Shown here: positions 26,121 through 59,373 of the stretch, in pieces
Position numbering within the stretch: position 1 is the first letter of the stretch
Layout of the letters: each line of letters starts with the position of its first letter
Source: Heterotrichella gracilis
Lineage: Eukaryota; Sar; Xanthophyceae; Tribonematales; Xanthonemataceae
Length of the DNA: 64,000 nucleotides
NCBI GenBank assembly: GCA_032358255.1
Contig: JAULBX010007218.1
Location: forward strand, 1-64,000
Direction: 5' to 3'
Program-made: the position numbers and the translations under genes
The notes under the pieces: model-generated
Told to the model about the DNA's origin: nothing
The model's input: the letters and a program-made list of their open reading frames with translations, nothing else
Database searches by the model: none

Positions 26121-29100
26121 ATGCTTGAGGCGGGCAGCCGAGGAGGGCCTCTGAGCCCCAGGGCCCCCCGCAGCGAGGCGGGCAGGTCAGAGTTCCACTC
26201 GGTGCACAGGCTGCACCACACCTACCACGAGCTGGCCAGCGGGCCTCTAGAGGAGCTCACGCAGCTGGTACGCATGCACTGCACTGCCATACCTCGCGCA
26301 TGGTCGTTACCCTAGCTAGGTACCCCTCTCTGTTTGTGAGGTTTCACTGGTGGGAATCCACCTAGTGTTATGGTTCAAGAGTGTGGAGGGGGGTTGGGTG
26401 ATCCAAGTGCACATGCTGCACCACAGCTACACGAGCTTGCCAACGGGCCCCTGGAGGAGCTCACGCAGCTGGTACGCATGCACTGCACTGCCATACCTCG
26501 CGCATGGGCTTCACCCTAGGCGTGGTGATTTTGTGCATAGGGGCAATGGGGGCAGTGGCGAAGCGGAACTAGCCGGTACAACTGCGTGCACCTGTACATA
26601 CCTGGCAAGGGTGTTTCTGTGCCCGTCTTTCCGGCAACCCCCCTTTAAACCCTCCAAACCCCCCAAACCCCAAGGCACCCACGCTTCACTCCAAGCACCC
26701 CCCTCGCCCCTGCACCCACCTCACCCACCCCTCCTCCCACACACCCAGGTTGGCAGGGGCAATGTGCTCCTTGCAGAGCTGCAGCAGCTAGGCAACCTGC
26801 TGCCACCTGTCATAGCCCAGCCAGATGCAACCTACGCACCAATACTACATGACCTTAGGTAGGTAGATCCAGTAGGTTGTGACATTGTGGCACACCCATA
26901 CCAGGCCCTGAGGGCCCTCAAGAAGTCATGCACACCCATGCGCCATATTCCATGCCCATCCCGTGCGCCATGCCCACATTCATGCCCATACTGCTTGGCA
27001 CAGCAGCGCAAGAATGCCAAGGATTGTCTACAACTAATGCGCAAACTACCCACATCCATACCCATGCCCAAGTGCCATCTTCCACCCCTCCCCACCCCTC
27101 CTCCCCATCCCCAGGTATCTGAAGGACCCCGCCTCACACGAGCGCAAGGTGGAGGCGAGCCCAAGGCTGCAGGCGCTGGATGACGCGTTCCGGGAGGTAG
27201 GGGAAGCACCCTAGGGGAGGGTTTTAAGGTTTTGCGGGCGGGCATTCTTGCATGGGCACAAGGTGGAGGCCAGCCAAGGGCATTGGTCCCAGCCCCTGGC
27301 ATCCGCCAATGCCCTAAGGTAGGGTCACTGGGTGGCATGCATGGACGGTGAATAGCAATTTTGCATTTGTGACCCACGGAGATGCAAGGTTCTGGCCCTT
27401 TGGGCTATCTGTCTGTGCATTGCGCATCACCCCATACCCCCCTTGTCCCGGATCCACTTCCCCTGCATATGTGCTTTGTTGTCCCACTCCTGTTGACCAC
27501 TTGCCACCGCGCTTCACCACCACTTCCCCTTGCCGCAGATCCACTTCCCCTTCCTTGAGCAGCTGTATGGCCTGCTTGAGTCGCTGGTGGTGTACCACGC
27601 GAACCTCACCACATGCCTGGAGGGGCTCATGAGCCAGGGGCAGCCGCACTGCACGCTGGAGACGCTGCTGTCGGTAGGGTTTGGGCTAGGGTTTGGTTAG
27701 AATGGGTTTCATGGGTGTAGTATCCACTTGGGGCTGTGATGAGGGTTTCACGTGCATGCTGGAGACGCTGCTGTCGGTAGGGATTGGGCTAGGCTTTGGT
27801 TAGGGTTTTGCGAGGATTGGGAACCTGTGCATTGTGGGTGCACAGGGCTAAACCCTTCCGTATGGTGTATAGCAACTCAGGCCTGTCACAAAACCCTTGC
27901 GCAGGGTCCCGAGGGCAAGCAGCTTCTGGTTGAGGCCTTGAGCCTGGTTGGTGTGCTGCTGCTGGTGCTGGACAGGCTGGTGGAGGGGGGGGCAAGGGAG
28001 CGGGCGGTGGTGGCATACTACAGATACAGGTAGGGGTGGGTGGGGTGGGGGGTTACTAGAGATGCAGGAGGGGGATGGAGGTGACTGCCACCATGGTGGT
28101 TTTGGCGGTGGTGGTGGAGGTGGTGGGGTGTCCAACAGGCATGGAATTGGTTGAAAGGGTACAGTCAAGCGTTTCATATTGACCTCATCATCACGCATGT
28201 AGGGTGGGAAGGGTCTCCTATGAGGGTATTTCCTTAGGTTTTATGTTGTGTGCAGGGGTGGCGCCCAGGCGGCTGGCGCCCACATCTACTCTGTCATCAA
28301 GCTGTGCAGGGCCACGGGGTACCGCAAGGGGGACAAGAGGTTCCCGGCAGGTGGGGAGGGAAACCCTAAACCCTGAGCATAACAACCCTTTCCAGGCTAC
28401 CTGAGCAGTATATAGCGTGACTGCTCCTCTTGAGGCCGGGGTTTCTGCAGCCATCCCAGTGCTCAAATCAAACGATCTTGTTGCCAATCCCACCCCTTGA
28501 CATTGCATCATGGAAAATAAGTCAATCTTTGATACCGTTCATACCATCAGCACCCCTGCCTCCACCCCTCCCCCACCCCCCAGGCTACCCTGACCAGTAC
28601 CTTGCACGCCTGCCCCTGCCTGAGGCAGTGGTCTCCGCTGCCATCTCTGTGCTCAAGTCCGACGATGTGTACAACCACACGCCGCACTACCCGCGGCCGG
28701 AGCACAGGACCGCCGCGCTGGCGCTGCAGGCAAGGCGCATTGCCAAATTTGATTTGATGGAAAAAGAATAATATTGTATGTGACATGTATGTGACATATT
28801 ACCACAGGTCTAGGGGCTGCAGGCAAGGCGGATTACAGTAAAAATGACACAGCTGTTGGTTATTTACACTTTGTGGTTTTGCTGGAATGTTGGTTAACCA
28901 CACTTCATAGATCTTTGTAGATCTGCTGGAGTGCTGTTATTCATAGCCACACTGCATATACCTACATCATTTTTTTAAAGTTCCCACCTCCTGCCGCAGG
29001 CCTCCCACCTGTACGTGGTGCTGTTTTTCCTCCCCAGCGTGCTCCACCGCGACCTCCCCCTGATGAGGACCCTGGTGGAGCGGCATTTCTGCGACACATG

Positions 29101-32100
29101 GGTCCTCTCATGGGCCCCGGGGTGCATTGCTGACCTGGCGGTGGACTGGGATAGGTACAAGGTGAGGAAGGGAGGGGAATCAATGCAAGGAAGCCTGTAA
29201 TTCAGCGACAGATATTCATGCATGTCTGGGGTCCAAGATGTGGTCCAGAAAATTATGCTCCTGGCTGAGGGGTTGTGCAGGAAATCTTGTACGGTCCCTC
29301 CCACACATATTATCAAACACCCATGTACCAACTCATTCCTTTCACCCACAACCACGTCCATGCCTTCCACACCACTATTACCATCACCACCCATGCATTG
29401 CCCCCACTACCCCCAACCCCCACACCACCACCACCACTCCTCACCGCAGGCCGCCCGCGCCGCCCTCTCAGACGCCCTCAGCGCCCCCCGCATGTCCCAC
29501 CTGGCGCTGGCGCATGCAGCAGCGGTGCCGCGGCTGCGCGGTGGTGTGGGGGGTTACATGGTGGAGGGGGCGCTCAAGGAGGGGTGCCTGCTGGAGGTGG
29601 GTGGGGGGTGGGGGGTGGAATGGATGACAGAGTGCCCTGCTGGGGGTGGGGGGTGTGTTATGTTGTGTGTTCTTTCAAAATCTGACGAGGTGTTGCTTCT
29701 ACACTGCTGCCATGCCACCAGCTATCCTATTGTCCTTCAATCTGTTCCTGCCACCCTTCAGGAGTCGGAGGACGTGGTGTGCCTGCTGCGTGACTGCAAC
29801 GTGGCCCTGCGCTGGCTGCTGCTGCACTCGGGTGCCTGCCGCAGGCGCCTGGGTGCTGGTCTGACTGCCAAGCTGCCCCCTCCGGATGAGGTGCTGGGGC
29901 TGTTGCTGGACACCGCACAGCTGGAGGCGGAGGTAAACCCTAACCCTAAACCCTTAATCCTTAACCCTGATGCTGGACACGGCACAGCTGGAGGCGGAGG
30001 TGTGCTGTACTCTAAACCTTCAACCCCGAACCTTCAACAGCATGATGAGTTGAGTGCATGTTTTCTCCAGTGAGGTGGGTGGGGAGCGGGATGGATGTGG
30101 TCTCATGGCGGGAGGTGTGCTGCGCTCCCACAGGAGCACCCGCAAAGACCCGCTGCATCCCCTGCTTTACCCTCTGCAAAGGCCTCGTGTATCCCCTGCT
30201 TTCTCATCCAACCTCCCCTCACTTCCCCCCAGGTGCGGCGCGTGTGGGGCGTGATCACAGACAACAAGCCCGAGCGGTGGCGGGCAGGGAGGGAGGCGGC
30301 ACTCCGCTGCCTGGCGGACCTGGCGGAGGCATTTGGTGGAGGCGGGAGGGGCAGCGGTGGTGGGGGCGTTGGGGCGGGTGGTGGTGGTGGTGGCGGCAGC
30401 TGGCGTGACGACAACCTGAGGGTGTGGTTCAGGCACATCGCGCAGCAGGTGGGGCCATAGCACCCTAATCGAACCCCTGCCCTGATCTCTACCTCTACCT
30501 TACCTCATTCCAAGGCCCGTCCATTGCGCGCCGCCTGGGCCAGCCGATGAACATGCTGTGTGAAGCCCACCGCCACCCGTACGTTCAACCCTCTTGCGCC
30601 CCCCGCAGGCGTATTTTATACTATAGTATAAAATACAACCCACCATCACCATCACCACCATTGCCACTAGGCATCTAATATTGATTCACTCTCGTCCATA
30701 GGTGTCTGGTGTAGAGCTAGGCCACGGCCCCTCCAGTGCCCGCCGTCTGCGGCAGCTGGTGAACGTGCTGTGCGAAGCGCAGCGCCACCCAGCGGTAGAG
30801 GGCAGCCCGGGGGCAGGGGCGGCGCTGGGGAGGGCGGTGGGTGCCATGGCGGGCATGATGCGGCTGGGGGCAATGGGGTGGGTGGCGGTGGTGGTGGGGT
30901 GGGGTGGGGTGGTGTAATGTTGGGAAGGTGGTGGTGAGCTCTGGCTGTGTAGAATATTATTTTCGATAAGCCCAACTATATCTTCCACCACGCTCTAGGC
31001 ATTCAATCATGCTCGCTCAATAACCTAAACCCTAAACCGTATCCAAAGGCCTAAACCTCTTTCCACACAAGCCACAAAGCCTAAGAAAGCCCTATCCCCT
31101 TTTCTGCCACTCTAACCACACTTCTGCCGGGCCCACACACCACAAACCCTGCCACAGCCTCTCAAATCCATCCACCCACTTTTCATGCAGTGAGGAGCTG
31201 ATGAGCACGCTGGCTGTGCTGTGCGAGTTTGGGTATGGGTGGGCGGTGGTGTCCCGCTACACGCGCCGCCTGCAGGCTAGGGTTCGGGAAAACCCTAACG
31301 CCATCATGAAGCTGCGCGCGCTTTTCCTCAAGATGCAGAGCCTGATGGAGGTCCCGCTGCTGAGGATAGCACAGGCGGGAGGGGGGGAGCTGTACAAGGT
31401 GGGTGCAAAAGGGGGGAAGCGGACCGGTGGGGCTAGGGATATGGTAGGATGTCCAGGGCTGATGGGTGTGGGCAAACGCTGCAATTGGGATTGAGGTTTG
31501 GGTGGGGTGCAGAGGGCGCGATGGAGCTGGACTGGGGCTTTGTAGGGTTCCGGCGCTGGATGTCAGTGCGGAGCACTCTGCAGGGTTGCGCAGGAAATGT
31601 GGCACCTTTTACCCGCACCACCAGTTACAGCTACACTTACCCACACCACCACTTCCCACCACCTTCCCACACCTGCTAGCATCCACCACCCCCCGCAGGT
31701 GTCCTGCTTCTACAGCGGGGAGCTGCTGTGGTATGTGCGGCGGGTGCTTGCGGTGGTGCCTGACTGCCTGTTTGAGGGGATGGACAAGCTGGTGGAGGCG
31801 CATGCAAGGGGAATAAAGGTGGGTGAGGCGTGGTGGTGGTGGTGTGTGGGTGTGGGGTGTGTCTGTGGGGGGTACAAGCCAGGGAGTTGCATGCAAGTGG
31901 TATCAGGGTGTTTGTGCGTGAGGTGGGGTGGTTGTCAAAATGACCATTGTGAGGAGCGATAGTAAGCAGGTGGAGGCACATGCTAGTGGGGTTGAGGCAG
32001 TTGTGGGGTTGAGGCACTTGTAAGGATGGTGTTGTTTTCACCTCTGCATCCTGAGCCCATCCTTGACCTCCATTTTCCCCCCAGGACCTGCCCTCCCGGC

Positions 32101-35100
32101 TTGATAAGAGCAGCCTGCGTGACTGGGCGCAGCTTGAGGAGCGCGCTGAGCTGGCGCACCACATACACAGGATATCGGCGTTTGCCCAGGGGAGCATGGC
32201 CATAGAGAGGTAAAGGGGTCTGCGTTGCTTGTGGAGGCAGGCCCAGGTCACATGCTTGGGATCCTTATGCGGAACCATTACCACTCAACACTACAAGTCA
32301 AAATTCTTGGCCAACACCCTACAGCCTGACTACGTAGGGCCGCCATGGGCATCATTCGAGCTTGAGCCCCACAACCTGCTGGCACAGGGCATACCAGAAA
32401 CCCTCAATCTCAATGCAGAACCCTAAACCCTAAATTCAACACCCCACAGGACCTTCATGGGCATCATCCAGCTCGACCCCCGCAAGCTGCTGGAGGATGG
32501 CATGCAAGAATCCCTAAACCCTACACCCCAATTTAAAACCCTAAACACGATTAAAACCCTAAACCCTAAACCCTAAACCCGCAGGACCTTCATGGGCATC
32601 ATCGAGCTGGATCCCCGCAAGCTGCTGGAGGAGGGCATGCGAGAAAAGCTGACGCAGCGCATTCGGGCGGCCTGCGATTCCCTCCTCTCCGCATTCTCGC
32701 ATGAGGCACCGCCCCTGGTGATAGGGGCCACCACCGGAGCGTCCCTGTCCCCATTTCTCATGGCGCATTTCCCAACTGGGGGGCAAGGGGAGGTGCCAGG
32801 TGAGAACCGTTTTCTTCTTGTTGCGGTATCACAATGTGCTGTGATATTGTAATATAATCCTCCCTGAGAAGAGAGGCAAAAGATTCTCGTTGCCACCCTC
32901 AAAATAGAGTTTTGCGTGACTGCAGCCCTTGGATTTCCACCATCTACAGTCTTTTCCACATCCCAAGCTAGGGTTTTCTGGCATGTGTAGGGCGGGATGA
33001 GCTCGAATCAGCGCTGCAATCGGCCGGGGCCCATTTGGCGGGCTTGGATCGATCCCTAGCCCATGTGCAGGACTATGTGCGCATGCATGGCCTGTCTGGG
33101 TGGCAAGGGGGGTACAGGGTTGTGCTGGGGAGGGCGCTGGCTCTCGAGCTGCGCAGGGTGAGGAAGGGGATGAAGGCTAAAGGGGAGGGGAGCGACAGGG
33201 GGGGCGCGGGCGGGGTGCAGGTGGGTGTGGAGTGGGTGGGGGGGGATGCGCAATGAGATTCTGTGAAGGCTTTGACGTTTTGTGCGACCGGTTGCTGTTT
33301 AGGGGTCCAAAAGTTTTGCAATCTGTTGATATTGGCTTTCGACGGTGCATTCAAAATCCTTTTTTCCATATGGACCTTTGTGTATGGGCCCCATGACCTT
33401 TGCCGTCCCTGCCGCACAGGACGACGACAGCCGGGGCACATTTCTGGGTGCCCTGGCCGGGGAAATGCTGAGGTTATCCCACCCCCTGCGCACAAGTTAC
33501 AGCCCCGCATGTGGCGGGTGGGTGGATGGCGAGGGCAATGAGACCCTTACCCTCCCCGCATTCCGCACATTGTTTGCCTCCCTGGGTGCCCCGGCGGTGG
33601 TGGCTCTGGATAGGCTCATGGCCTGTCGAATTGCACAGGTAAGTAGGGTTTTGGATTGGGGTTCATGCTGAGGTGGAACTGCTGGCGCTGGTTGTACAAG
33701 GCTAAATGCTGATGTGGCTGTTTTGCTTGTAACTGTGTGAAGTCCACTACAGTTGTATGATACAACTTGTATCTCATGCAAAAGAGTGTGCAAATGCGCT
33801 CATCCCGCTCCTTTTCCACCGAGGCCTACAAATGCACTTTTCTGACTCAGGATTTGTGAATCCTCAAGGACGCCCATCTTAAATGCATTTTTTAACCATT
33901 TTTTTAATCCCAGGGACTCCACCTCCTGTTTACCACCCACCTGAACAGCGCATCCGCCATAGCGCTGCCAGGGGGGCAAGGGGGTCTATCGGGGGCTGAG
34001 GAAGGGGAGGGGGACCAGTGGGCGGCGGCGGTGTCTGCTGCGGGTGGGCGGGGGCTGGCTGGTGTGGTGGGTGTGGTGGCGGCGGTGGGCCAGGGGTTGC
34101 TGTTGCGACGACACCTGGCGCTGGAGCTGCAGACTGCATGCAGGTGGGGGAGGGGGGGTGGGGGGATTATGGGAAAGGTTTCATGGGAAGTGAACTGAAG
34201 TCATGGGTATGTTCCCTGCAATGAAATACTGGATCATGAAAGGATGTGACGTTCGCATCCATACTTTGAAATTTACTTCGGCTGCACACGATCATTGTAG
34301 TTGTCTACCAAGTGTGCACAGGCTTTAAAAGCAGCGCAGGCTGGCGGACTGCCTCGAAAGTGCATTAACAAGTGAGAATAAAGCGTATCATTTCCCCGCT
34401 GCATGGCCACGGAAATAAGTACTGAACAATAATGTAATGATAATAATGCGTGTTCACATTGCATACCCCCCTCCCTCCCACGCGCACAGGCTTGAGGGCA
34501 GTGGCCAGCTAGCTGACTGCCTGGTGGGTGTGAAGGCAAGCATGGAATTTGACTCGGATGGGTGGGGGGAGGGGGGCGTGGGGGGCATGGGCCAGCTGGC
34601 AGACATGATGGAGGGAGCAGGTGGGGTGAACATGAAGTCCTTAAACAGGTCATTTGGTCAGTAAATACAGTACGAATCATTGTAATTACTAAGCATGCCA
34701 TTGTCCTCTGATCCCATGTACATCCTTGTGCTTTCGTATCATTCCTTGTGTTTGTCAGTTACATGCGTTCCTGAAGTTAAGAGATTTATCCATGGGAGTT
34801 TGTGAATGCCATTCTCGCACAGCTTACGCCATCCAGATTCTGCCTTGCACACCACCACCAGCAGCACCATCACCCTCCCCTCCACCTCGCAGGCCTCTCC
34901 GACCCCGCCACCACCCCCTACACCGCCACCCCCCACCCCCCACCCGCCGCCATCGCCTCCCTCCTGTTCCTGGCCACCCTTCAGGCCATCCCCCACCTCA
35001 CCACCCACCCCACCACCGGTGCACTCCAGCGCCTGCCGCGAAGGGAGGGGGCGGATGTGGGTGCGCTGGTTGAGGGGCTGGCGCTGGTGGTGCGACAGGG

Positions 35101-36731: not shown

Positions 36732-39700
36732 CTAGAGCTGGTCATCCTCCAGCGACAGGTACCCAGCTGATAGCCTGTTTCTGGTCCTGCATGAGCTGTC
36801 CTCGGGTGCGCACACCTCGCAGCGGTTGCAGCTCTTGCGGCAGGTGCCCAGGCTGAAGTTGTCACCTACGGGGGAGGAAGAGGGGGAAAGGGATTGAGGT
36901 GCGGAAAACTGGGGTTGGAGATCGAGAATGGCGATGAATTGCCTGTGCCCTGGGTTGTGTGGGTGTGGGTGTGGGTGGGGGTGTCGACACCCCCTCCTGA
37001 TCAGAGGTAGGGCAAGGGAGGTGTTGAGTGCGTGAGCGGATTGAATGCGGCATTGCGGATTAGGTTGGCAATTGGATATGGGGGTGAAATTCCTGTTTAT
37101 GCATTGGATCCAATTCCATTTTGGGAAGCTAATGGGATTCCCGATCAGTCACATCTCCCATCTCAACTCCCATCCAAATCCCTATAGGGTTGAAATATCC
37201 AAAACCCTACCCAAAACCCTATCTAATACCCTAGGGTAGGCTACTTGGCTACTCACCCGTCATAAACTGCTCGTTGTGCACGCACTCCCCCTTGTCTGCC
37301 CACTCAGGACACTTGTCGTCCAAATCCTCACAATCCTCGGGCAGGTGGCCCGCAAGCTCATCGGCGATGGGTGCGCCAAAGGTCTCTGGCCGGAATGGCG
37401 TGGTGTGAATCCACTTGATGCCCACCCACTTGGTGCCCTTGAGGATGGGGCATGCTGTGTGCATGGCGTGCATGTCGTGGCTGCCGTCGGGGGTGAGCGA
37501 GTAGAACACCAGGGCCATGCCTGCGGGGAGATTTGGTTTTTTTAAGCAAATTCTTCTGCAGTTTGTTTCATGAATTACAGAAAAAAGAAATGCTGCTGGA
37601 TTGCTTTGCCAAAATGTGCAGGAATGAACTCGTGGCACGTCCTTTGCGTAAACACAAGTACGAAACCTAGGTTGCTGGATCACTGGATCACGGTATGCAG
37701 ATGCTACGTAGCCACCTACCCTTCTTAGGCTTTGCCGCCACATGGCCATACGCGCACTCCGACAGCCCCGACCCGTATTGCTCCCCTAGCTGCGGGTTGA
37801 TCCACTCGCTGCCGTCTGGGAAGGCAGTCTCCCCCCCCTCCTCCACATCGTTGAGGTACATGAGCACCGTGGCCAGGCGGGGTGAGTCAGCATCCAGGCT
37901 GTCCATGTGCTTGCCGTACTTCTGGAAGTAGCCGTAGCGCAGCACCTGGGGGAAGGGGTAGGAGTTGGCTACAGTCGCGCTGATTGCGGGATTGCAAATT
38001 GCAGTGCAGTGCATTGGCGCAGGCGATACATACGACCCTTCGAGTCACGCCGATTGTGGCATTGCTGTGCGCATTGGCGCAGGGCAACGCATACAACCCT
38101 AGCCTAGGGTTTTCCAGCACTGGCCCCTGCCATCTGATTTGTTGGGTTGAGGTCAGCGCCCTCCTCTGCCCCTAGGGTGAAGATCAAGGGTCCCCCACCT
38201 GCAAGTCCTCCTGGTGCGTGGCATTTAGGTGCACCCATGGAGCCACCCACTCCTTGTTCTCATGATCGTGGGATCCATGCATGTTTCTTGGTCGTAAGCC
38301 CCACACCCTAATCCTAAACCCGTATCCCTACCTGCATGTCCTCCTGGTGCGTGGCATTGAGGTGCACCCACGAGGCCACCCGCTCCTCGATCTCTGAGAT
38401 GGTGCTGTCGTGCTGGCGCCCCAGGAAGGTACCGTAGCTGGTGCGGTAGTTGTCAACCACACTCTGCCCGTGCTCACCCACAACAGTGGACCGCTTCATC
38501 TGCGGGTGGGTAGTGGGGGTACTACTGTGAGCGCGTGGTGTGGTTGGACTTGTGCTGCTGTCTTGTGCTTGCCAAGTCATGAGGTGAATCCATGGAGGCT
38601 ACTCTTGAGGTTGTCGGCGTGGCATTGGGGTGAAATGGTCATTGCATTGAACACGGCAGCTGATACAAGGGGAAATTGTGTGCATATAGGTGGTGCACTC
38701 AAGTCCCCTGCCTGGAGAGCGGAAACGCAGGCACTTAACATGAAGGCTGTAAACCAAAACCAGTGGGGATGGAATAGGACTTCGGCCCTGAACCCTAAAC
38801 CATTTGCCAAAACTGCACAATGTGTCATTTCCTCACCCTTGGCTTCGCAGTCTCGATGATGTGGTCGCATTCCTCATCTGACAAGAAATTGTGGTACAGG
38901 TAGACCCGCGGCTTGTAGGACACCAGCTCCACCCACCGCTCCTTGTCGCCCAACCCTCGTTCTGTGCCATAGTTCGGCTTGTCTGCCAAATACCCGCTCT
39001 GCGACAACCCAACAGCAAGTGAGGGTCGGCATGTGTGTCGGGTTGGAATTGAGGTGGCGCAGTTTGGGTTTGGAGGCAGTGGGATGTGGTGTTGCTTCCT
39101 GCTTTGGTGTGCAACGTGCAAGCCTTGAAGTATACTGTGATTGATATTGAATGTTACGCGCAGAATTTGTATTGCAAGACAACTATGAAGTTGCCACTTG
39201 CTGCACGCATGCAAGGGTGTAGTCCTGAGCTGTAGCGGGTCACAAGGCTCACCAGTCGTTTTTGTATGTCCACAGTCTTCTTGGTCTTGATAGTAGGCGC
39301 GCCATTGAGCTTGTCAGTGTCTGAGAAGTCTATGTGGGCGCCTGCAGGGGAACCCCAAACAAGGATTTCAGCACCAACCAATTAGCCAAGTGAAGGAACC
39401 CCTCACCTCCCAAGACCGCCATATGACAGGGGTTGGTGCAGGAAGTACTCTATCTGTGAAGGTATGCCTTTAAATTTTATTCAGCACTTCAGTTTCAGCC
39501 TGTGGTGTTCTAGCCAATTAAGCGGCCAAGACAGTAAGTGCAGTGAGGTACGGCTGCGATATTGAAGATGTTGACCAAGGTGGGTTGGCTACGGGCTGCG
39601 CTTCAAAGTTATACATATACTTGCAGGTCCCAAATGAGAGTTCGACTGAATTTCCCCTAACAGTAGGCTAAGCACCAGGACAAGGCAGGCACACACCACG

Positions 39701-39785
39701 TTGGAGGCAAGTACCCACACAACCCACCGAGAGTCGCTGCCACGTGCACAGCCAGCAACAATACTGCAAGCTGAAATCGCCTCAT
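36732..39785 (-). CDS. Prolyl 4-hydroxylase with C-terminal ShKT module
   Basis: Seven exons with good splice sites (39.71-39.79, 39.25-39.34, 38.84-39.0, about 38335-38500, 37720-37945, 37259-37520 and 36732-36865). An N-terminal hydrophobic signal ([20 protein letters not shown]) targets the ER lumen. The catalytic 2-oxoglutarate/Fe(II) dioxygenase fold follows: [67 protein letters not shown] with the H-x-D iron ligands, and [19 protein letters not shown]. The distal ligand region is [20 protein letters not shown], with His and the 2-OG-binding Lys. The tail [17 protein letters not shown]...[13 protein letters not shown] is an ShKT domain, common in algal and plant P4Hs. It hydroxylates prolines in Hyp-rich glycoproteins (family knowledge). 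An in-frame ATG at 39812 ([11 protein letters not shown]) is an alternative start. Confidence 0.92.
38200..38405. repeat. Exon/donor copy in P4H intron
   Basis: About 38199-38260 (CCTGCAAGTCCTCCTGGTGC, then GTGGCATTTAGGTGCACCCATGGAGCCACCCACTCC) repeats 38334-38395 (CCTGCATGTCCTCCTGGTGC, then GTGGCATTGAGGTGCACCCACGAGGCCACCCGCTCC). The second is the coding exon ([17 protein letters not shown]) and the first lies within the following intron, 135 bp away, with its donor complement (ACCTGC) kept. Confidence 0.85.
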
Positions 39786-46708: not shown

Positions 46709-49700
46709 CTAGATCGGCCCAAGCGCCCCCGCCAACATGGGCTCCAGCGCCCCCTGCAGCTCCCCCAGCACCCCCTGCAGCGCCACCTCCTCCACCACCC
46801 GATCCCGCAGCACCTCCAGGAGCGCATCCACCTCACGGGAGGCCCCCACCACCCCCCCGTACATGTCCAACACCCGGTGCGCCACCGCCGCCAGCTGGCG
46901 CGAGTGGCGGGGTTCGGTGATGTGCTTGGCGGTGTGGGTGAGGACGGGCAGGAGGGCGGTTGCGGTTCGGCCCGAGAGGGCGGAGTTGAGGCCCCCCCGC
47001 GTGGAGAGCTCTTGGAGGAGCGCGGCGATGGTGGGGGGCCTGCGGGTTGTGGGTGGGGGGCGGTGGGTGAGAAGGGCAGCGGGGCTTGTGGTGCGGCGCG
47101 GTGGGTGGATGGGTCGGGAGGTGGATAGGGAATAGAGGTATTGCCGTACGTGCATTGCTCGTCTGCATGTCAGCATTTCTGCTAATAAAGAGCCACCCTG
47201 CCAATCATCTGGGGGTACCATGCTTTCTACTGAGGTGAGCGATAGGGCCGTGCATTGCTTCTAAAGCACTCGTACAAACGCTAAGACCCTCAACCCTCAG
47301 AACCATCAATCTAAAACCTGAACCCACACCGTAGAACCCCACCTGTGTGTCTCCAGCGCCGCATCCAGGGCCTCCCGGTACTTGAACTGCCTGAGCAAGC
47401 GGTCGTAGGGGGCCAAATGCACCCGCCGCTGCCGCGCAATGCGGTGGTCGGATTCCGCGGCCTTTGCATTTTGGCCCCGCAGGAAATACCGGTAATTTTG
47501 CCTCGTCATATGGGGCTGTGAGGTGCCCCCCGCTTCAGATGTGGAGGGGCCCTTTGGGAGCGCCCGGCGCCGAAACGCCACATTTGCGTTCCCCATCCCC
47601 ACTGCCAGGGATTGGCAGTCTGGGGATAGTCCCAGGGAGGTGATGGGGGCGCCAAAATCTGTGATGTGGGTGAGCTTGAAGGTCTCAAGGTCATATACCT
47701 GGGGCGCAAAGGGGTGGAGGTATTGGCGGAATAATCAGCTGTGATCAGCATGTAATCAGATGTGATCGGCATGTGATCAGCTCGCATGTCAAACTCCCTC
47801 GCCACCACGCTGCTCCAAAAATGACTAATCATTCATTGCAGGTGATCAGCTGATCCCAGATCATCAGTAACGTATCATCACCTGTGCCACTGTCACATAA
47901 ATAGCCCCCACAAACCCCCACACAAACCCCATCCCCACCCACCTTAACATGCCCATCCAGCGACCCAGACAGCAGCCGAAGCGCAGCCTCCGCACCCCCC
48001 GCAGCCACAGCCGCCACCCCCACACAGGTCACTGTCTTCTGATGGCTGGTCAACCGGGCCACCAGCCGCCCCCCCCCAACCACATCCCAAATGCACACAT
48101 TTGTGCCCCCCGCGGTGGCAAGCAGGGAGCCCGAGGGGAGGAACGCCATTGCTTCAACGGGGGCGCCGTGGTCTAGGCACATGACTTGGGACTTGCCCCG
48201 CACGTCCCAGAGCCGCACAGTGTGGTCGTAGCTGCCTGTGAAAACAAGGGAAAGCAGGGTTGAGAGGGTTTTGCTTACAGATTTTCAGTGCCTTCGCAGA
48301 GTTTTCTGCACTGCATGTTTTCTCATATTCACTTCGTCAATGATAACCAAGTGTATACATAGCATAGAGTACATACACTGCACTATGCAGGGGGGATATC
48401 CTCCGGGATTTGGCACCCGCCGCCGTGGGGTTTCCCTCGTAAGGGTGCGGCGGCCGGTGGCATTTCCATGACCCGGGGGCGGGCGGCGCCTGCACGCGGG
48501 ACCGCGGCGGCGCCCATTCTTGGCTGTTGCGTGGTTATGACTCAAACTCGCCCCACACGCCCAAAGGCGCAACGGGGCGCGATCTTAAGACCAACGCGGG
48601 TGGTATTTGTGTGTGCTCTTGTGCGGGGTGGGTGTGTGCGTATGCGTGGGTGAGGAGGTGTGCATTGTGACTGAAAGTGGTGCACCCAACCTCGTGCAGA
48701 GAATGTGTCGTGCCTAACCACATGCAGAGAGGGTGCCTCACTCCCAGATTGGAGGTTTAGGATTTTCCATGTCCCCTCTGGTCCAGGTTTAGGGTTTGAG
48801 GGTTAAGTATTTAGGGTTTCTCTCCACCTGTGGCCCACGTATCTCCGCTGGTGGGTGATGGCGCCGCCGCCCGCACATAGTCCGTGTGCCCAGTCAGCCG
48901 CGTGGCCTGGCTGCCTAGGGTGACATCCCACAGGCGGACCTGGGAAAGGGGAGGAGGGATGATAAGTACGTACGAAGACTAGTGGGTATGTGGGTGAATG
49001 GGTGTGTGCACTGAGTTTGAATCCACCATGGCCCTGCCAGCTGAAGGCGTACCCACACCAGCCACCCTGACACCTCACCCCTGCAGGGTCCACCACACCC
49101 CGCTGCATCACACGCACCCCCTCACAACACAGCCCACCACACGCTTACAAGCACACGCACCCACAAACCCCCGCCCTCTGCCATCTCACCGTTGCGTCAT
49201 CGCTCCCCGACAGCACATGCACCCTGTCCTGTGCAAAGTGCGCCACGTGGGTTGGCCGCTTGTGCCCCTTGAACTGGCGCAGCACTGAGCGGCTGCCCAC
49301 ATCAAACACCTGCGGGGTTGGGGGGTAAGGGGGATGCAATTTGGGGGGTGAAATGTTGGGCAGAGGCAGGCTGGGATGGCCAGCAAGTAAGGCTTAGGCC
49401 AAGGCTCTCAGAATTTACCACAGGCGACCCATCAGGACAATGGATCAGCAGTAAATATAACTCCTGCGTTGCGCTGCCTGGCGTCGCATGTGTGTTGCAT
49501 TCCTGACTGCCATGCTGACTGCAATGCTGGATGCTTGTATCTCAGTGTTTAGCAGGTTTTGTGCCAGGGTTATTGAATGCGTTGCACAGGTTTGCAAGGG
49601 TTTGCCCCAGAATTTCCCCCGGCTCACCTGCACCATCCCGTTGTCCCCCCCTGCCACCAGCAGCTTGCCATCCCCTCTGAAGCTGCCGCAGCGAGCCACA

Positions 49701-51586: not shown

Positions 51587-54500
51587 ATGGGTTCGATGAA
51601 CTCTCAAACGCTGCCTACCTTATCCAGTACCCTTCTGGGTCCTCCTTGTATGAGACACTGGCAGACAAGACAAAGCCATGGTGGTACAGCAAAGCACACC
51701 CACCTGCAATGTGGGCACCATTCGAATGCCATGTGGAGCAGGACTCGTTCAACTGGGAGGAAAAGGGTGTTGAGAGGGGTATGGGCGGCTGCGGATGGTT
51801 CGCGGGATGGCGATGGAGAAGAGAAGAACGAGAATGAGATGAGCCAGGAGGAAGTTGAGGACCCACTTCTGTCGTACAAGAGGTGGGGGAGTTTTCGCAT
51901 ATGGCATGCATGCATCAATGCATGCAGGCTGTTTGACTGTTTCTGGGGCAAGGCACGAAAGGACCTGCAGTAGAAGGTTTATTATGTGTATGTGTTTGGG
52001 AAAGACTATGAATCTCCCTGGGATCAACGGCACTCCAGAGCCATGGTAGGCACCCACTACCTGTGCCCTTGTGATTCCAAGCCTTTCACCACCAAACCTC
52101 CTCATCTTCGCGTCGCTCAGAGTGTACAACCTCTGTCAAGGCCTTTCAAGGGGTCAACCGTGTACCCTCCACAGCACACACAGCGCAACAGAACCCGCGA
52201 CCTGCCCCCAAGGCCCTAAACCCCAACCTAAACCCTACACTAGCAAACCCAGTACTGCAAACGTTTAGTTGCACCACGCAGTGCGCACCTGCGCACGCTG
52301 CATACCCTTCATACCTGGTGCTTTGAATTTGGACATGTACTGAGGTCAGGGCTTATGGATTATTGTTTGGTGAACAAAGCCTGCCGCCAATTATATCGCT
52401 GTTATAATTGAATAACTTGCCCACCCTCCCGCACTAGTTATACACTTGAACTTTTACCCCTTGTTTCCCTTGTGCAGGGAGTCTGGCCCCACCGCCTTGG
52501 AGGAAAGCAAGGGGTACAGGCGGCGCCCCCTATGGTGGCTAGGCCAGGGTCCCGGGGACGTGCGGGAGGCGCAGCGGGGATTGAAAAGAAATGTGAGTGA
52601 GTGTGGATTGGAAGCCTGGATTAGGAAAGGCATTTCTGGCATGCACCAACATGGCGCACCAACATGGGACCGCCTTTTTGCGGAATGAGTCAAATCAGGG
52701 CTTAGGGTTTTGCATGGCGGACACTCGTCCCTGAAAGTTGTCTATTGCGTTACCAATGCACCAACCTGAACCCTAACGCACGGAAAACAAACCTAAGCAC
52801 CAAGAAGGTTGGGTGGTACCGCTCCTGGCCGTGCAGTGGTTCCAACGGGGTTAGGGGATAGGGTTTCGATGGGCCACGCAAGCTTGGGATTGGGCCAGCT
52901 TTGGTCAGGATGCACATGAACTCGTTGTGTGGAGCGCCATGGATTCACTTTTGATCTCTCTTCCCCACCGTCGCAGGATTTCATGGGTTGGGCGCTATAC
53001 CAGTACTACAACTGGCGGAGGGGTACGGTCAGCGATCTCGCGCTCATTGCGGGTGCCAACGCCCTGCTGCTGGTGGGGTGGGCGGCTGTGCAGCGGGGGC
53101 TGGTGGGGGCCACCCAGGTTGCAGGGGATGGGGAGGTGGTGGTGGGGGGTCCGCTGGCGGAGTGGTGGCAGAGCCTGTACTCGGTGGGTGGGTGGTTGGG
53201 CGGAGGGAGGTGGGGGTGAAGATTGCGTTGGTGTTGCAATAACGATGCATTCTGAGGGGTTGCGTGGCATTCCCGTCCCTGAGGGGTTCGATTGACAGAT
53301 TTGACAATTTCCTTGCCTTGTCAGAATGCCTTGGCGGTTTGTGACATCCCCACTGAACACTCGTGGCATTTCCTTGAACAAATTTGTGGCAACCCATCTG
53401 CAGGTGCTTGTGCTGTCGTTCGGTGAGAACTTCCCCGACCAGGCCACGTCATTCCCCTCCCAGGTGTTCAGCGTCATTACCGCGGGCATGGGACTGGCGA
53501 CATTCGCAATCATACTGGCGCTGGTGGAGCAGGTGGGGGGCATTATTAGGGTTTAGGGTTTAGCTACTACTGGCATGGGCCTGGCAACATTCGCAACCAT
53601 ACTGGCGCTGGTGGAACAGGTGGGGGGACCACGTTAGGGTTTAGGATCTAGCTTCCCCTAGGTGTTCAGCGTCATCACTGCAGGCGTGGGCCTGGCAGCA
53701 TTCGCAATCATACTGGCGCTGGTGGAGCAGTTGGGAAGAGAACCTAGACCCTTGGGTGTGTTGGACGAGGATAGTCACCCAAGGCACGGGCCTTGCAATA
53801 TTGGTGGTCATCCTGGCGATGGTGTGGCAAGCGTGGGGTGCCCCCCTTCATTCTAGCCCTAAGCCCGCTTTGCATCCCCCGTATTGCCCCCTGCAATGCC
53901 TGGATTTGATCTAGTAAAATCAGAGCTGTCGACCCTAAACCTAAAACCCTAGGCCAGTGCAGGTGGTCCTTGAGGTGATTGCGAAGAATTCCCATATCTC
54001 ATTCCCCTAAACCCTAAACCCTAAACATGTACCGTTTCACCCTTGCAGGTGGTCCTTGAGGTGATTGAGAAGAATGTTGAGCGGGGCAGCCCTGTGTATG
54101 AGGAGGGGCACATACTGGTGCTGGCCTGGGGCAACTGCAGGTGAGCAAACCCTAGCCTAGGGTATAGAGGCAGGGTGAGGGTTTGGCTTGCTGATGTCAA
54201 ACCCTGTGGAAGCGCACATACGGTACTGCAGTGGTGCTGGGCTGGGGCAATTGCAGGTGAGCAAACCCTAGCATAGGGTATAGAGGCAGGGTGAGAGTTT
54301 AGCTTTTAGAGGTCAAACCCTGTACAGAGGCAAATGCTGGGGTTGGGTTGGCAGGATTGGGTGTAGCAGCAGGTGTATGGTTAAGAAGCAGCAATGGTAC
54401 CATAAATCCATAGATAAGTAATTCCAAATCCTGCACCAGCTGACGACACTGACACACGCTTTCATGATTTAGATCGGGGTTTCCATTGCAGGCGCGATGT

Positions 54501-57500
54501 GATCATGATGTTCCGGATCCTGCGGCAGCTGATTGCAACCACTGATCCCACCCATTGATCATTTCTGATCGCAGTTTGGTGATCGCAGGCGCGACGTGAT
54601 CATGATGTCCCGCATACTGCAGCATCTGACTGCAGCCACTGATCACACCTATTGATCATTTCTGATCGCGGTTTTGTAATCGCAGGCGCGACGTGATTAT
54701 GATGTTCCGCATCCTGCAGCAGCTGTGCCTTGCGTACCGGGGCCAGGGGGGGCGCGTCATGGTCATCATGAGCAACATCGAGAAGACATCGCTGGAGGCC
54801 AACTTTGCGCAGGGGCTACCTGAGGCGCAGCGGTTCGGGTCAACGTGAGGGAAAACTCAAACCCTGAACACCTGAGCTGACTATGAACCATGGAACTTGA
54901 ACCCTGAGCTTGAGTGTAGACCCAGCTCTCTGTGGGTGCCTGCAAAAAAAAAGGAATGTCCCTTCCCCTAATGAAAATCCCCTTGTTATCTTCCACCCCA
55001 CGCACTCTATTCCCCCCCTTGCGTGTGTCCCCTCACACCCTGCATTACATCCCCCCAGGATTGTGTTCCGCCAGGGCTGCCCCTTGATTGTTGAGAGCTT
55101 GCGCTATGTGAGTGCGGGAGTGGCGGCAACTACCATCGTCATATCAGACGGGTCAAGGGGAGCGATTGATGCAGACGCACAGGTGGGAGGGGGGGAGGGG
55201 GCATTCATGTGGTAGGCAGGCTCTGTAGTCCTACTGGAGCAAGGTTTCTTTGTTTATGTGCATGGTTGAGGTAATGGCGCGGAGTTTTGTGCTGTTGCCT
55301 TGCATATGTATATCGCATGATCACACGCCATCACATTGCATTTGGAACAGTTGTGTGTGTTCCATGCTGTAGCGGAACCGCCTTGCCAAAAGGACCAAAT
55401 GTGGGACATCTGTGTGTATCCCATGCAGGCCATTCGGTGTGCTGTCCTACTGGACGAGCTTGACGCTCCCCCCCCGGGCACCCCAGACCACCGAAAGGGC
55501 AAAATCATTGTGGAAATCAGGGACCAGGAGGCCGTGGAAATGCTCAAGGTGCGCACCCACCTTAGCACTCACTGGAATGTGGCCTTTTTGGTTTTGCATC
55601 ATATGCAGTTGCTGTGGTTCTAAAGGCGCGGGGTATCTTGTGCCATGACTTACCTGTGCCACTCAATTTGGAGAGGTTTAAATAAAACCCTGCCCACCAC
55701 CCTATTCTTGTCTGTTTCACCTGGCTTTCCCTCCCCGCAGTTCACCTGCTCCCCGCGCATCATCCCCCTGCCCACCAACACAGCCAACGCGGGCCGCCTG
55801 GCCAGGTTTGTGGGCAACCCCATGCTCAGCGCAGTCAACCAGCTCATTTTCAACTTTGAGTCGAGCGCACAGGGCTACGTGGTGCAGTTCCCTGAGCTAA
55901 ATGTGAGTAAAACGCTGGGCCGTTTGAAGCCCTACAAAACCCACAAAATTCCCGAACAAGACCTATGCAGTCCACCCATCTCATAGTTTGCTGTCAATAT
56001 AGCAAAGCGCTACATGGTGCAATTCTTAGAGCTGGAGGGGAGTGAACCCTGAGTGCTTTCTGCCAACTTCGGGCAAATCCTGCACAAAACCCTCTCCAAA
56101 CCCTTGGTGCAGGGGGTGCGCTTCAGGAACGTCCGCCTATATTTCCGATGCTCGGTCTTCAACACCTTTTTCAGTCCACCACTCCCCGTGCGATAATATG
56201 CGCTTTGTCTGGGCAAAACCCGTCAATGAACCCTTGGCGCACACCCTTCAAAACCCTACTAAACCCTACACAAACCCTCCATAATCCGTTGGCGCAGGGC
56301 GTGCGGTTCAAGCACGTGCCTCTCTACTTCCCTGAAGCGGTGGTGCTGGGTGTTTTCAACACCAGGAAGCAGCAAAGCCAAGCGGTGATGCCGCCCGGCT
56401 ACATGATGGGGCCACAGGATTACCTCATCGTCATGCGCCCCTCCTGGTACACCCCCCAGGAGTTCAAGCCCCTGGCAAAGCCTGTGAAGGCGGATGCAGG
56501 TACAGTGCTGTACTGGGTGTGCTACATGATGCTTTGAAGCAGTAGCCCAAAAGTCATTGTGTGGTCTCGTTGATAACAGCGAATGTTGGTGCATGTGCTC
56601 GTTATGTCGGCTACACCAAAAACCTTTTCAAATGCCTTGGGCTCGTTAGATTTACTGCATAGACTGAACGGAGTGCGCCTGTTCATACATGATGGAGTCC
56701 ATGTACCCTGCTTAATAACCAGGTATATCACTTGCCTTACTTCCCTCTTGCAGGCGATTGGGACTTTTCTGATTTCCATATACGGCGCCTGCGGGGCATG
56801 CCTGCGCTGTCCGGCAGCCAGCTGGTGGAGAGCCTGGACCCAGAAGCGGGCAACAGGCGGGTATACGGGTCAATCACTGAGGTGGGTGAGGGGGGCCTGT
56901 GTGGTGCAAATATTGTATTCAGCGGGGCACGCTATCACTTTGTGGGCCACATCTTCAGGTTTGGCAGCGCCATGGCATGCCTGTCTCTGTCAGGTAGACA
57001 GCTTCATAGAGGCATGCCATGTTGACCATCCCATCCACCCTCCTCCCTCCCCACACCACCCACCCACCCACCACCCCACCTGCAGGAGTGCCTGGGCGCC
57101 TACGCGCAGTACCTCCTCCCATCCCACCTTGCACGATCCAATTCCCCCTTACCGGGGGCTGAGTGCCTGCTTGTGGCTGGGTGGGGCGAGCAGTCCTTCA
57201 TGGTGGAGCTGCTGAAAGAGCTGGATCATGGGGAGAACAGGCTGGCGGAAGGGTCGGAGATCATGTTTTTGAATGAGCATGAGGCAGGTGGGTGGCAGTG
57301 GTGGGGTGGGGTGGGGTGGATGCATGCAACCACCGCGGATGCCCGCAGCACGGCGACCTGCGCACCAGATAGGATCACCTCAAATGTATGGTAAACCATT
57401 CCCCGCTGTCTTCTCCAAACCCTCGTGTGCCTCCCCTGCCGACCTGCGCACACAAAACCTTGAAAATAATAATGTAAATTTTAGAACAAATGCATTTCCA

Positions 57501-59373
57501 ACAATTTTCTCTTGTTGTGTTCATCTTAATGCCACTACCTGCCCCCGCAGCCACCACCCTGACCCCGGCCCTGACCTGCGCCGGGGTCCACAACATCAGG
57601 ACCACCCTGGTGCGCGGGGATCCCCGCTGCGCCGCGCACCTTCGCACCAAAGTGGACTTGTCGCGCTACACCAGCGTGATCGTGCTGTGCGACATGCTGT
57701 GGATGGACCCCGATGACAACGCCAACAACGGGATCAACGCCATCCAGGAGCTGAACGACATGCTGCGACTGGATAGTTTGATCATGCGGGTGCACCTCAA
57801 CGTGCGCAAGGTCATGCAGGTGAGGGGGGTGTTGAGTGTTCTGGTGGGGGGTGGGGGAGGGTGTGGATGTGGGTGGGGTTGTGGAAATGTGGGTGTCGGT
57901 GTGGGTGTGCTAGGGTAGATTAGGAGTGTAAGGGTGTGGGGTGGGGTGGGTGTTGGGGAAGGGTGCTGATGGTGCGGGAGCTCCTCAACGTGCGCAAGGT
58001 CATGCAGGTGAGGGGGTTACTTTTGTGGGGGTAGGGGGAAAGGTCTTCAATCCTTGCAACAGTCTGCTCAATACTCATTAAGGTCTCCATCCATTTTGAT
58101 TGAACGTGTTCATCTATGCCCCACACCCTTTCCTGTTTTCAAAACTGGACATCCAGTAATTGGACATCCATAATTGAAATGACAATGGTTGAAGAATGTT
58201 TGAAACAAGGCGCCCTGCTGTGATGCCTGCAGGAGCAGGGCCTTCCCGCCAAGAACCTTGTGTGTGAGCGGCTGAGCTACGAGGGAACCACTCGCTACGA
58301 GGACGCATCACGCCTCCCCCTCAAGGTCACAACCAACTTCATAGGCTATGCGGCAAAGATGCTGGCGCAGGTAACATTGGTTCAAACTACATGCAGTTCA
58401 GTGAGATTACTATGTTCCTGGATGATCTTCCCTGGGAGGGACCCTAGTTGACCCCTATCTCCTCATAGCAGGCAGGTTGCCTACACCCCATGGCCCTGCT
58501 GTCAAAATCCCATTCGACCCTAGCCCCCTGCCAAACCTCTTGTCATCCTATTCCCCCTCCCCTGCAGGTTGCCTACAACCCCATGGTCCTGCTCCCCCTG
58601 CAGCAGATGCTTCGCGACAACCTGTTTGAGATCCTGGACATGGCGCTGTTCTGTGACGAGCACCAGGTGCTGACCTGGTGGCAGCTGCAGGTGAGGGGGC
58701 GAGAAACCCTGTGGTAGGGTTGTAAAAAACCCTGTGGTAGGGCTGTTGGATCCTATCTTCAGTGAGAGCACCAGGTGGCAGGTGCACGTAAGTGGGTGGG
58801 ACAGCGCTGTGGCAGGGTTTAAAAACCTAGAGCTTACAAGCGTTACAGGTGCCAAAGTATGTCCTAGCCCACTTTCCAATAGCTTGGTGGGCTAAATCGT
58901 GTAAGGGTTCTGTTTAGGGGTCGCCCACCGATTCTTTACCCTATATCACCCTTTTCCTTTCAGGTGCGTGCCCAGTCTGTGGGCATGGTGCTGGTGGGAT
59001 ACCTTGAGCTGCTGTATACACCCTAGACCCTAAACCCTGCTCCCCATACCCTGTACCCCACATAGTATACCTTATTCCCCCCCGATTTTGTCAGGTGCGC
59101 GCCCAGTCCGTGGGCATGGTGCTGGTGGGATTCCTGGAGCTGCCCCAGAGCAGGGACCAGGGGGTGGAGGTGGTGATCAACCCGCGAGGGGAGGAGTGGC
59201 GGTCCCAGGGGCACGTGTGGAACCGCGGGGATGGGAGGATGCTGGCGCTGCTGCTGTCAGCCAGGGAGGAAGAGGCACCCCAGTCGGTGCCCCTGCTGAA
59301 TGGGGGGAGTTGGGAGGAAGGGTTGGAGCGGGCGGGGGTGGTGGGCGGGGCGGGGGAGGGGGTAGCGCGGTGA
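51587..59373 (+). CDS. CASTOR/POLLUX (DMI1/SYM8)-like ion channel
   Basis: Phase-consistent exons 51587-51882, 52478-52592, 52977-53183, about 53404-53532, 54049-54140, 54686-54844 and onward to 59373. The N-terminus (MGSMNSQTLPTLSSTLLG) is Ser/Thr/Arg-rich and acid-poor, possibly a plastid presequence; an acidic stretch follows (GEEKNENEMSQEEVED). Membrane segments: LALIAGANALLLVGWAAV and VFSVITAGMGLATFAIILAL, with a pore-like loop LSFGENFPDQATSF between them. The cytosolic RCK/TrkA-N-like part reads VVLEVIEKNVERG, HILVLAWGNCRRDVIMMF, GRVMVIMSNIEKTSLEANF, VFRQGCPLIVESLRYVSAG, RCAVLLDELDAPP, GKIIVEIRDQEAVEML, VRFKHVPLYFPEAVVLGVF, a second AECLLVAGWGEQSFMVELLK unit, and DLSRYTSVIVLCDMLWMDPD. 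In plants these channels sit in the nuclear envelope and support Ca2+ signalling, but in algae the role is open. The Gly-rich tail is unconserved. Introns contain many splice-junction copies. Confidence 0.88.
53462..53830. repeat. Four tandem copies of a membrane-segment exon
   Basis: The block GTGTTCAGCGTCATTACCGCGGGCATGGGACTGG...GCGCTGGTGGAGCAG (53463-53532, coding VFSVITAGMGLATFAIILAL) recurs at about 53560-53621 (partial), 53662-53730 (nearly complete, with a CCCCTAG acceptor-like site and still open), and in decayed form at about 53758-53826. Intervals are about 87, 111 and 95 bp. TTTAGGG words separate the first three. Confidence 0.85.
54116..54325. repeat. Exon end plus donor duplicated, 116 bp apart
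   Basis: From TGGTGCTGG(C/G)CTGGGGCAA.TGCAG through the donor GTGAGCAAACCCTAGC and on through TAGGGTATAGAGGCAGGGTGAG to GTCAAACCCTG, the sequence at 54116-54206 is repeated at 54232-54320 at roughly 90% identity. The first copy is the real exon end (HILVLAWGNC), and the second is a complete decoy exon end with a perfect donor. Confidence 0.85.
54492..54735. repeat. 97-bp tandem array of acceptor plus exon start (three copies)
   Basis: Exon starts GCGCGA.GTGAT.ATGATGTTCC at 54492, 54589 and 54686 are exactly 97 bp apart. Each is preceded by its own acceptor (TTGCAG, ATCGCAG, ATCGCAG) and, for the last two, by ATTGATCATTTCTGATCGC. Only the third copy continues into conserved channel sequence (LRQLCLAYRGQGG). 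Copies one and two meet stops after about 20 codons. Confidence 0.92.
56100..56370. repeat. Exon start copy in channel intron
   Basis: About 56100-56168 (TTGGTGCAGGGGGTGCGCTTC...GTCTTCAACACC) repeats 56289-56365 (TTGGCGCAGGGCGTGCGGTTC...GTTTTCAACACC), about 189 bp apart. The second is the coding exon (VRFKHVPLYFPEAVVLGVF). A nearby segment at about 56010-56035 also echoes the previous exon's end (GCTA.(G/A)TGGTGCA.TTC). Confidence 0.75.
58961..59150. repeat. Acceptor plus last-exon start of channel gene, two copies
   Basis: CAGGTGCG(T/C)GCCCAGTC(T/C)GTGGGCATGG...TGCTGGTGGGAT(A/T)CCT(T/G)GAGCTGC occurs at 58961-59019 and 59092-59142, 131 bp apart. The first copy runs into TAG after LLYTP and is followed by CCCTAGACCCTAAACCC. 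The second continues to the gene end. Splicing to the first acceptor would yield a shortened protein. Confidence 0.9.

Follow-up and report, generated by a model that had tools for sequence, protein, structure and literature searches.

The window is a 64-kb stretch of Heterotrichella gracilis DNA (GC content 55%) and carries nine predicted gene models. A sequence-only reading of it had named several genes, of which WASHC5 is confirmed: in a Pfam scan of four of the nine window models its product matches Strumpellin (E = 9e-222). P4H, TRAIP, CASTOR-like, and G8 are kept here as labels of that reading. The scan also located DUF6691 in one window protein, plus β-helix matches under the curated cut-off; the G8 gene gave β-helix matches only, all of them sub-threshold, and the predicted P4H-like and CASTOR-like proteins had no Pfam match at E ≤ 0.01. 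Eight chosen models among the 32 outside the window all matched Pfam families (e.g. HSP90, ammonium transporter, and RCC1); several of the scanned models were incomplete. A protein search returned zero matches at E ≤ 0.001 among 7988 scored candidates, one viral-contig scan returned zero matches, and a PDB search with WASHC5 returned two matches, both glycine-linker.

We analyzed 18 loci totaling 229 kb, the window included, and 5 held-out loci (50 kb) that were annotated with a frozen gene model. These 23 loci amount to 279 kb, or 0.4% of the 68.5-Mb, 903-contig assembly. Twenty extra stretches (193 kb) were drawn first; three of them (L002, L014, and L018) look like Bacteroidota when judged by their proteins rather than by a family search and were excluded from all algal counts, which reduced the near pairs defined below from 104 to 100. 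All models, exons, and junctions are predictions of a splice-aware gene finder trained on the same data. It returned 41 genes with CAG/GTGAGT-like donors and GCAG/G-like acceptors. A first annotation was superseded by a second, and 24 predicted exons were deleted as copies of their neighbors (0 in the held-out set). We refer to introns of 80–1200 bp with both flanking exons of at least 40 nt as confident (n = 246 in the 18 loci and n = 48 in the held-out loci).

Direct copies at predicted splice junctions

We call two direct repeats a near pair if they lie within 600 bp of each other at E ≤ 1e-3. Comparison of the window with itself revealed 24 of them and 0 inverted near repeats at the same threshold, and five dinucleotide shuffles of the window contained no near direct repeat even at E ≤ 10. 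The window offsets range from 67 to 247 bp, the sole exception being a 504-bp low-complexity pair (Table 1). There are 100 near pairs in the 18 loci and 43 in the held-out loci, 143 in total, and at least one is present in 14 of 18 and in 5 of 5 loci, respectively. Direct outnumber inverted near pairs by 104 to 2 in the first survey and by 43 to 0 in the held-out loci. The offset is mostly 60–220 bp (119/143 pairs). Long introns (350 bp or more) have 34 of their 35 exon-edge copies no farther away than 220 bp, compared with 39% predicted by uniform placement.

Table 1. Direct copies in the window, with genes and junctions as predicted
Position	Strand	Feature	Offset (bp)	Identity
13989..14166	-	G8 gene, near-tandem repeat; one copy across predicted acceptor	95	86%
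17016..17253	-	G8 gene, exon edge, copy in intron	180	84%
26202..26519	+	WASHC5 exon end and donor (26202-26315, donor after 26267), intronic copy 26407-26519; spacer 91 bp	205	91%
27650..27803	+	WASHC5 donor junction copy; copied intron part telomere-like (TAGGGTTTGGGCTAGGGTTT)	103	94%
28392..28666	+	WASHC5 acceptor and exon start, copy in upstream intron	188	76%
29900..30001	+	WASHC5 donor junction copy; spacer 29935-29966 telomere-like (CCCTAAA)	67	94%
30510..30790	+	Exon-internal segment 30722-30790, copy in upstream intron	212	81%
32316..32646	+	WASHC5 acceptor and exon start, two upstream copies; CCCTAAA-rich DNA between	247, 136	
38193..38394	-	P4H gene, donor junction copy; telomere-like words in spacer	133	87%
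45336..45622	+	TRAIP region, copy across predicted acceptor (exact site differs between two annotations)	219	81%
46525..46765	.	Direct repeat; models of both strands conflict, junction relation uncertain	193	85%
53452..53735	+	CASTOR-like gene, one donor junction in three copies, TTAGGGTTTAGGG between	87, 201	
53958..54075	+	CASTOR-like gene, acceptor and 27 nt exon, upstream copy; CCCTAAA tract 54005-54026 in spacer	86	97%
54116..54323	+	CASTOR-like gene, donor junction, near-tandem copy	116	90%
54422..54725	+	CASTOR-like gene, acceptor and exon start array; final copy is the predicted exon	unit ~89-97	
56075..56331	+	CASTOR-like gene, acceptor junction copy, decayed	186	75%
57779..58016	+	CASTOR-like gene, donor junction copy	188	92%
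58472..58593	+	CASTOR-like gene, acceptor junction copy, begins at GCAG	92	93%
58673..58825	+	CASTOR-like gene, donor junction copy, decayed	97	79%
58960..59143	+	CASTOR-like gene, acceptor junction copy; telomere-like words in spacer	131	92%

The sequence-only reading had described introns carrying copies of the exon boundary they abut. Such junction copies are real in the stretches it named and occur beyond the window, with one exception: its copies in YeeE could not be recovered, as the region concerned (~8–12 kb) holds no near pair at E ≤ 1e-3. A perfect 39-bp tandem repeat at 9710–9797 is the only repeat seen in this YeeE-like part. The copies it called near-identical turn out to be 91% identical at 26.2 kb, 87% at 53.7 kb, 90% at 54.1 kb, and 81% at 54.5 kb (87% matches by TRF). 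Its extension to nearly all genes is roughly borne out when loci are counted (14/18 and 5/5) but not when introns are: a junction-region copy is present at either end of 66/246 introns in the 18 loci and 25/48 in the held-out loci.

One copy lies across a predicted junction in 71 of 100 pairs from the 18 loci and in 27 of 43 held-out pairs. Taking 110 bp on each side of every junction, we find this region copied into its own intron for 38 of 246 donors and 44 of 246 acceptors, compared with ~2.5 of 246 expected per end (~1%) from a mismatched-intron control. The donor copies comprise 22 that span the junction, 8 with exon only, and 8 with intron only; the corresponding acceptor numbers are 26, 8, and 10. 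The held-out loci give 14/48 donors and 16/48 acceptors versus 1.1% in the control. Copies holding at least 12 nt of exon are present in 51/246 introns (20/48 held-out), and exon edges are copied into the abutting intron in 51 of 680 cases versus 8 of 3258 for introns one to three positions away.

Ordinary tandem duplication by slippage or unequal exchange would be spread evenly, and it might leave a similar pattern if exon-internal copies were purged and the repeat unit eroded down to the constrained exon edge; we regard this explanation as unlikely, although it merits serious weight. Because exon-internal duplications are lost, surviving pairs are expected to favor introns, and we therefore used a selection-aware null in which each pair is placed randomly and kept only if the added DNA avoids exons (pairs spanning at least 500 bp are omitted, and some pairs are non-independent owing to arrays). 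Among young pairs (at least 90% identity), 24 of 31 span a junction versus 35% of genic null placements (p = 1.3e-6), and 0 of 31 are intergenic versus 41% under the null (p = 9e-8). The junction excess thus remains after allowing for selection, and the copies do not show the even spread without junction enrichment that would have spoken against the sequence-only reading. At 85% identity or more, 43 of 61 pairs span a junction and 0 of 61 are intergenic; wholly intergenic pairs (7/100) are of lower identity. As one of their copies is constrained, young junction pairs may in fact be older than intron pairs with the same identity. This constraint on the exon copy could raise the expected junction share but leaves the empty intergenic class unexplained. 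A shift test on the first annotation placed 68/100 pairs at junctions versus 36.4 ± 6.2 expected. Copies at junction centers (43/492) exceed those at intergenic points (4/290, p = 7e-6); the comparison with intron middles (7/138, limited to the 138 of 246 introns of at least 260 bp) points in the same direction and is not significant (p = 0.21).

The anatomy of the pairs bears on the same alternative. The aligned part covers 0.75 of the offset or more for 34/143 pairs, which are compatible with tandem duplication, and less than that for 109/143, some of which are non-adjacent array copies. The term tandem used in the sequence-only reading therefore suits these 34 pairs, but not the majority, whose copies enclose a spacer that has hardly any similarity to the two flanks and in many cases resembles telomere repeats. 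We rejected simple tandem duplication as the general case, as the aligned length is mostly far under the offset and the flanks barely match. In a flank test covering 71/100 pairs, the flank predicted to match by tandem duplication scored 0.03 versus -0.06 and 0.04 versus -0.06 per base (pair versus control), with 3/24 and 2/29 pairs exceeding the control 95th percentile. This weak homology persists on the intron-side flank, as old tandem duplications would leave it. When array copies are counted too, the 61 exon-edge hits have shorter spacers where the copies are longer (rho -0.51), as tandem duplication would have it; for pairs of at least 85% identity with a spacer there is no such correlation (rho 0.04). 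Small tandem duplications are common (PMC8355091). In several young pairs, however, the copied intron bases match as well as the exon bases do, after which homology ends sharply (25 of 27 copied intron bases match in the pair at 27650), and erosion alone can therefore not make those spacers. The exon-only copy at 30510..30790 is likewise unaccounted for by plain tandem duplication.

Differences between exons and their copies fall on codon positions 1, 2, and 3 in 79, 114, and 226 cases (~1090 sites each), and the copies decay mostly as non-coding DNA does. We considered whether diverged haplotypes or strains had been wrongly joined head to tail by the assembler, which seems very improbable to us. 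Such joins would keep exon copies similar while introns differ, certain copies diverge chiefly at third codon positions, the pooled third-position share of 54% is somewhat high, and the assembly is indeed mixed, with 3 of the 20 first-sampled contigs being Bacteroidota-like. Yet the 193 of 419 differences at codon positions 1 and 2 are many for two coding copies, pair identities span 66% to 97% with arrays of at least three copies, no N is found in the window or in any of the 26 loci, and an assembly search with 26200–26560 returned itself alone. RNA-mediated copying, i.e. retrocopies of spliced exons, has next to no probability in our view: many copies do consist of exon edges, but intronic copies across a spliced exon-exon junction were found at only 2 of 359 junctions, and many copies contain genomic intron bases, such as the 48 at 26268–26315 (45/48 matching). 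The sequence-only reading was thus right to point to such intronic bases and to dismiss retrocopies, and the recurrent, DNA-level process it proposed, leaving copies of abutting junctions at graded ages, is supported.

Telomere-like DNA in introns and spacers

Among all octamers of the window, words of a TTTAGGG repeat show the strongest over-representation. In green algae, (TTTAGGG)n is described as the ancestral telomere repeat (PMC8226300). We located 133 TTTAGGG/CCCTAAA tracts of at least 10 nt in the 229 kb, of which 113 are intronic, 14 intergenic, and 6 in predicted exons. Per 10 kb they reach a density of 10.4 for introns, 2.35 for intergenic sequence, and 1.0 for exons (p = 6e-10), compared with 12.1, 4.8, and 0 in the held-out loci (p = 0.02), corresponding to intron/intergenic ratios of 4.4 and 2.5. 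Intronic tracts occur in both orientations (64 versus 49) and lie at a median distance of 38 nt from a splice site, versus 75 nt if they were uniformly placed. With telomere bases masked, 43 of the 113 intronic tracts have direct repeats on their flanks, compared with 9.8% for control points; the held-out intronic tracts give 7 of 28 versus 10% (p = 0.02), and held-out tracts of at least 14 nt give 4/17 versus 11%, which is not significant (p = 0.12). Intergenic tracts (10 nt or longer) showed no such association (1/11).

The spacers between copies are enriched in the same words. Omitting redundant array pairs and spacers shorter than 15 or longer than 200 nt, here and in the outer-flank comparisons below, and taking the expectation from 500 draws of intron segments of the same loci, we find telomere-like words in 19 of 33 spacers of pairs with at least 85% identity (5.2 expected, 0/500 draws) and in 21 of 45 at 80% or more (6.8 expected, 0/500). 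In the held-out loci the counts are 6 of 15 at 85% (2.5 expected, 14/500) and 9 of 22 at 80% (3.7 expected, 5/500). Some spacers are almost entirely repeat (L005 4512–4535 and L010 6407–6446). Two spacers are strongly AT-rich (GC 0.19–0.20).

These spacers, the excess of telomere words, and the direct repeats around tracts would all fit insertion of telomeric repeats at staggered breaks, in which telomerase or captured telomere fragments would be the driver and the direct repeats would be long target-site duplications. There is mammalian precedent, with duplication at 6/130 rodent and 4/25 primate loci (PMC2246262). Several observations nevertheless make this account improbable to us. A telomere word is missing from 14 of 33 spacers (85% identity) and from 13 of 22 held-out spacers (80%), and outer intronic flanks are almost as telomere-rich as spacers (7.7% versus 9.7%; paired p = 0.049, and p = 0.21 with exonic copies that lack telomere words). 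When whole introns are permuted inside their locus, the link proves weak, with the observed density reached in 341/5000 and the observed count in 582/5000 cases, and tract orientation agrees between spacer and outer flank in 6 of 10. The polarity predicted by telomerase extension of 3' overhangs is seen in 9 cases and reversed in 22. Telomere content and copies correlate across loci (rho 0.67), and the telomere link is partly regional.

Proposed break repair and intron growth

Our favored explanation, with about an even chance of being right, is that breaks close to exon edges are repaired time and again in an error-prone way that leaves a direct copy, usually together with filler. Genes would suffer such breaks or paired nicks repeatedly, for the most part within or close to exon-intron junctions, and error-prone joining would duplicate ~20–110 bp of adjacent DNA, comprising exon edge, splice site, and some intron, in direct orientation. 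Filler would usually be placed between the copies, often of the TTTAGGG/CCCTAAA telomere type. Because splicing at the original site removes the extra copy from the transcript, an intronic copy would persist and decay, and the intron would gain roughly 60–220 bp per event. The proposal gives no reason why junctions would be preferred over intron interiors and intergenic DNA. Within this proposal, the break, the way in which it is repaired (fill-in or local templating), and the origin of the filler are inferred. Exon-only copies make up 6 of 61 pairs at 85% identity or more versus 0.7 expected and suggest local templating rather than fill-in alone. A start no more than 8 nt upstream of the exon is seen for 12 of 34 acceptor-type versus 3 of 29 donor copies (p = 0.04); acceptor copies with a full acceptor tract would perhaps be spliced and lost. 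A bolder version of the break-repair proposal, in which junctions would be hotspots of structure-driven breakage whose repair adds telomere-derived filler and a direct junction copy, forming a standing genome-wide engine that lengthens introns and seeds decoy sites, is offered tentatively, as one that we doubt more than we believe.

In human and mouse cells, fill-in of 3' overhangs by CST-Pol α-primase followed by NHEJ yields small tandem duplications, and CST-Pol α also fills in telomere ends (PMC8355091). Duplications of this type depend on CST, 53BP1, and Shieldin. These duplications and the algal copies have direct orientation and short range in common, and both are break-derived in the respective model. 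The mammalian duplications are adjacent, whereas the algal pairs mostly contain a spacer (109/143; the other 34/143 would fit) and are clustered at junctions. That a CST-type repair operates in Heterotrichella gracilis would be a guess.

Telomeric insertions during double-strand break repair, some with target duplication, have been reported for rodents, primates, and horse (PMC2246262 and PMC7215372). Mammalian interstitial telomeric sequences and those of the alga are alike in placing telomere-type repeats at internal sites. Target duplication concerns the few rodent and primate loci given above, compared with 43/113 flanked intronic tracts in the alga, and human interstitial telomeric sequences are found in introns at a random rate (31%), in contrast to the 4.4-fold (held-out 2.5-fold) density of algal introns over intergenic DNA.

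Intron growth and origin are a long-open question, on which the idea of break repair has drawn largely on isolated examples. Readable traces of varied age are present here in a fifth to half of confident introns, and the process could therefore be dated and compared between strains. The junction focus beyond selection suggests that gene damage depends on gene structure, and through the excess of telomere-like repeats the evolution of introns would be linked to the machinery of telomeres or of end repair. Introners are intron-generating transposons. They share with the alga a genome-wide effect on introns (PMC12730881). No Introner-like dispersed family is seen in the window, where distant matches at E ≤ 1e-3 number 2 direct and 4 inverted. 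In a literature search that left most subscription papers outside, no title or abstract among the matches listed dealt with pervasive intronic junction copies that carry telomere-like filler.

Known mechanisms of intron gain include tandem genomic duplication and double-strand break repair, as described for Daphnia, Drosophila, and others (PMC3443670 and PMC2891723). The likeness to the alga lies in direct repeats near splice sites and in break repair, which for the alga is a proposal; the difference is that the alga appears to lengthen existing introns, with the new-intron signature showing no clear excess. The sequence-only reading had suggested that introns might also be created by duplication of splice junctions. 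This would correspond to tandem genomic duplication of AGGT-bearing exon segments, and we find it hardly likely. One candidate in L012 has 20 of 23 bases in common between exon end and intron end, in register. In-register donor/acceptor similarity exceeds the null 99th percentile in 10/392 introns against ~4 expected, and the strongest case is in our reading a decoy donor located where a predicted gene ends (any-register scores were discarded, as their windows overlapped in short introns).

The lengthening of introns, which that reading also proposed, is supported in both data sets: introns with an exonic copy have a median length of 375 bp compared with 263 bp without (51 versus 195 introns, p = 1e-6), and the held-out medians are 330 and 282 bp (20 versus 28, p = 0.018). 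In the first annotation repeat-touching introns were shorter (203 versus 259 bp), because copies called as exons split introns. The copies also leave decoy splice sites, as anticipated. Of the decoys scored, 19 of 21 at donors and 20 of 26 at acceptors lie above 0, with mean site scores of 4.6 versus 5.7 (decoy versus real) for donors and 3.2 versus 7.3 for acceptors.

Variation among loci and AT-rich spacers

Intronic copies of the abutting exon edges and telomere-like words both vary strongly between the sampled stretches of the assembly (L005, L008 and L021 versus L009, L016 and L007), and the two are correlated across loci with at least five introns (rho = 0.67). The DNA between repeat copies has a GC content of 0.19–0.20 in two stretches, L008 and L022, in host loci of 54–55% GC, and these AT-rich spacers could represent filler of organelle origin.

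Bacterial contigs in the assembly

Three sampled contigs (L002 on C1, L014 on C100 and L018 on C180) have a GC content of 0.33–0.40 and carry long ORFs, which in our reading are Bacteroidota-like. Bacterial contigs thus seem to be present in the assembly.

The CASTOR-like gene and other repeats in the window

A Pfam scan of the predicted CASTOR-like protein returned no match at E ≤ 0.01, and the name is therefore that of the sequence-only reading alone. The window also contains a perfect tandem repeat and a longer direct repeat, the latter omitted from our short-range repeat counts because its spacing exceeds the counted range.

Coordinates of spacers, repeats and the CASTOR-like gene
Feature	Location	Details
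AT-rich spacer	L008 6635-6681	
AT-rich spacer	L022 9878-9931	
CASTOR-like gene	window 50187-59373	
~185-bp direct repeat	window 5075-5262 and 5696-5878	73.5% identity, copies 621 bp apart
39-bp tandem repeat	window 9710-9797	2.3 copies, contains CTAGGGTAA; YeeE-like gene region
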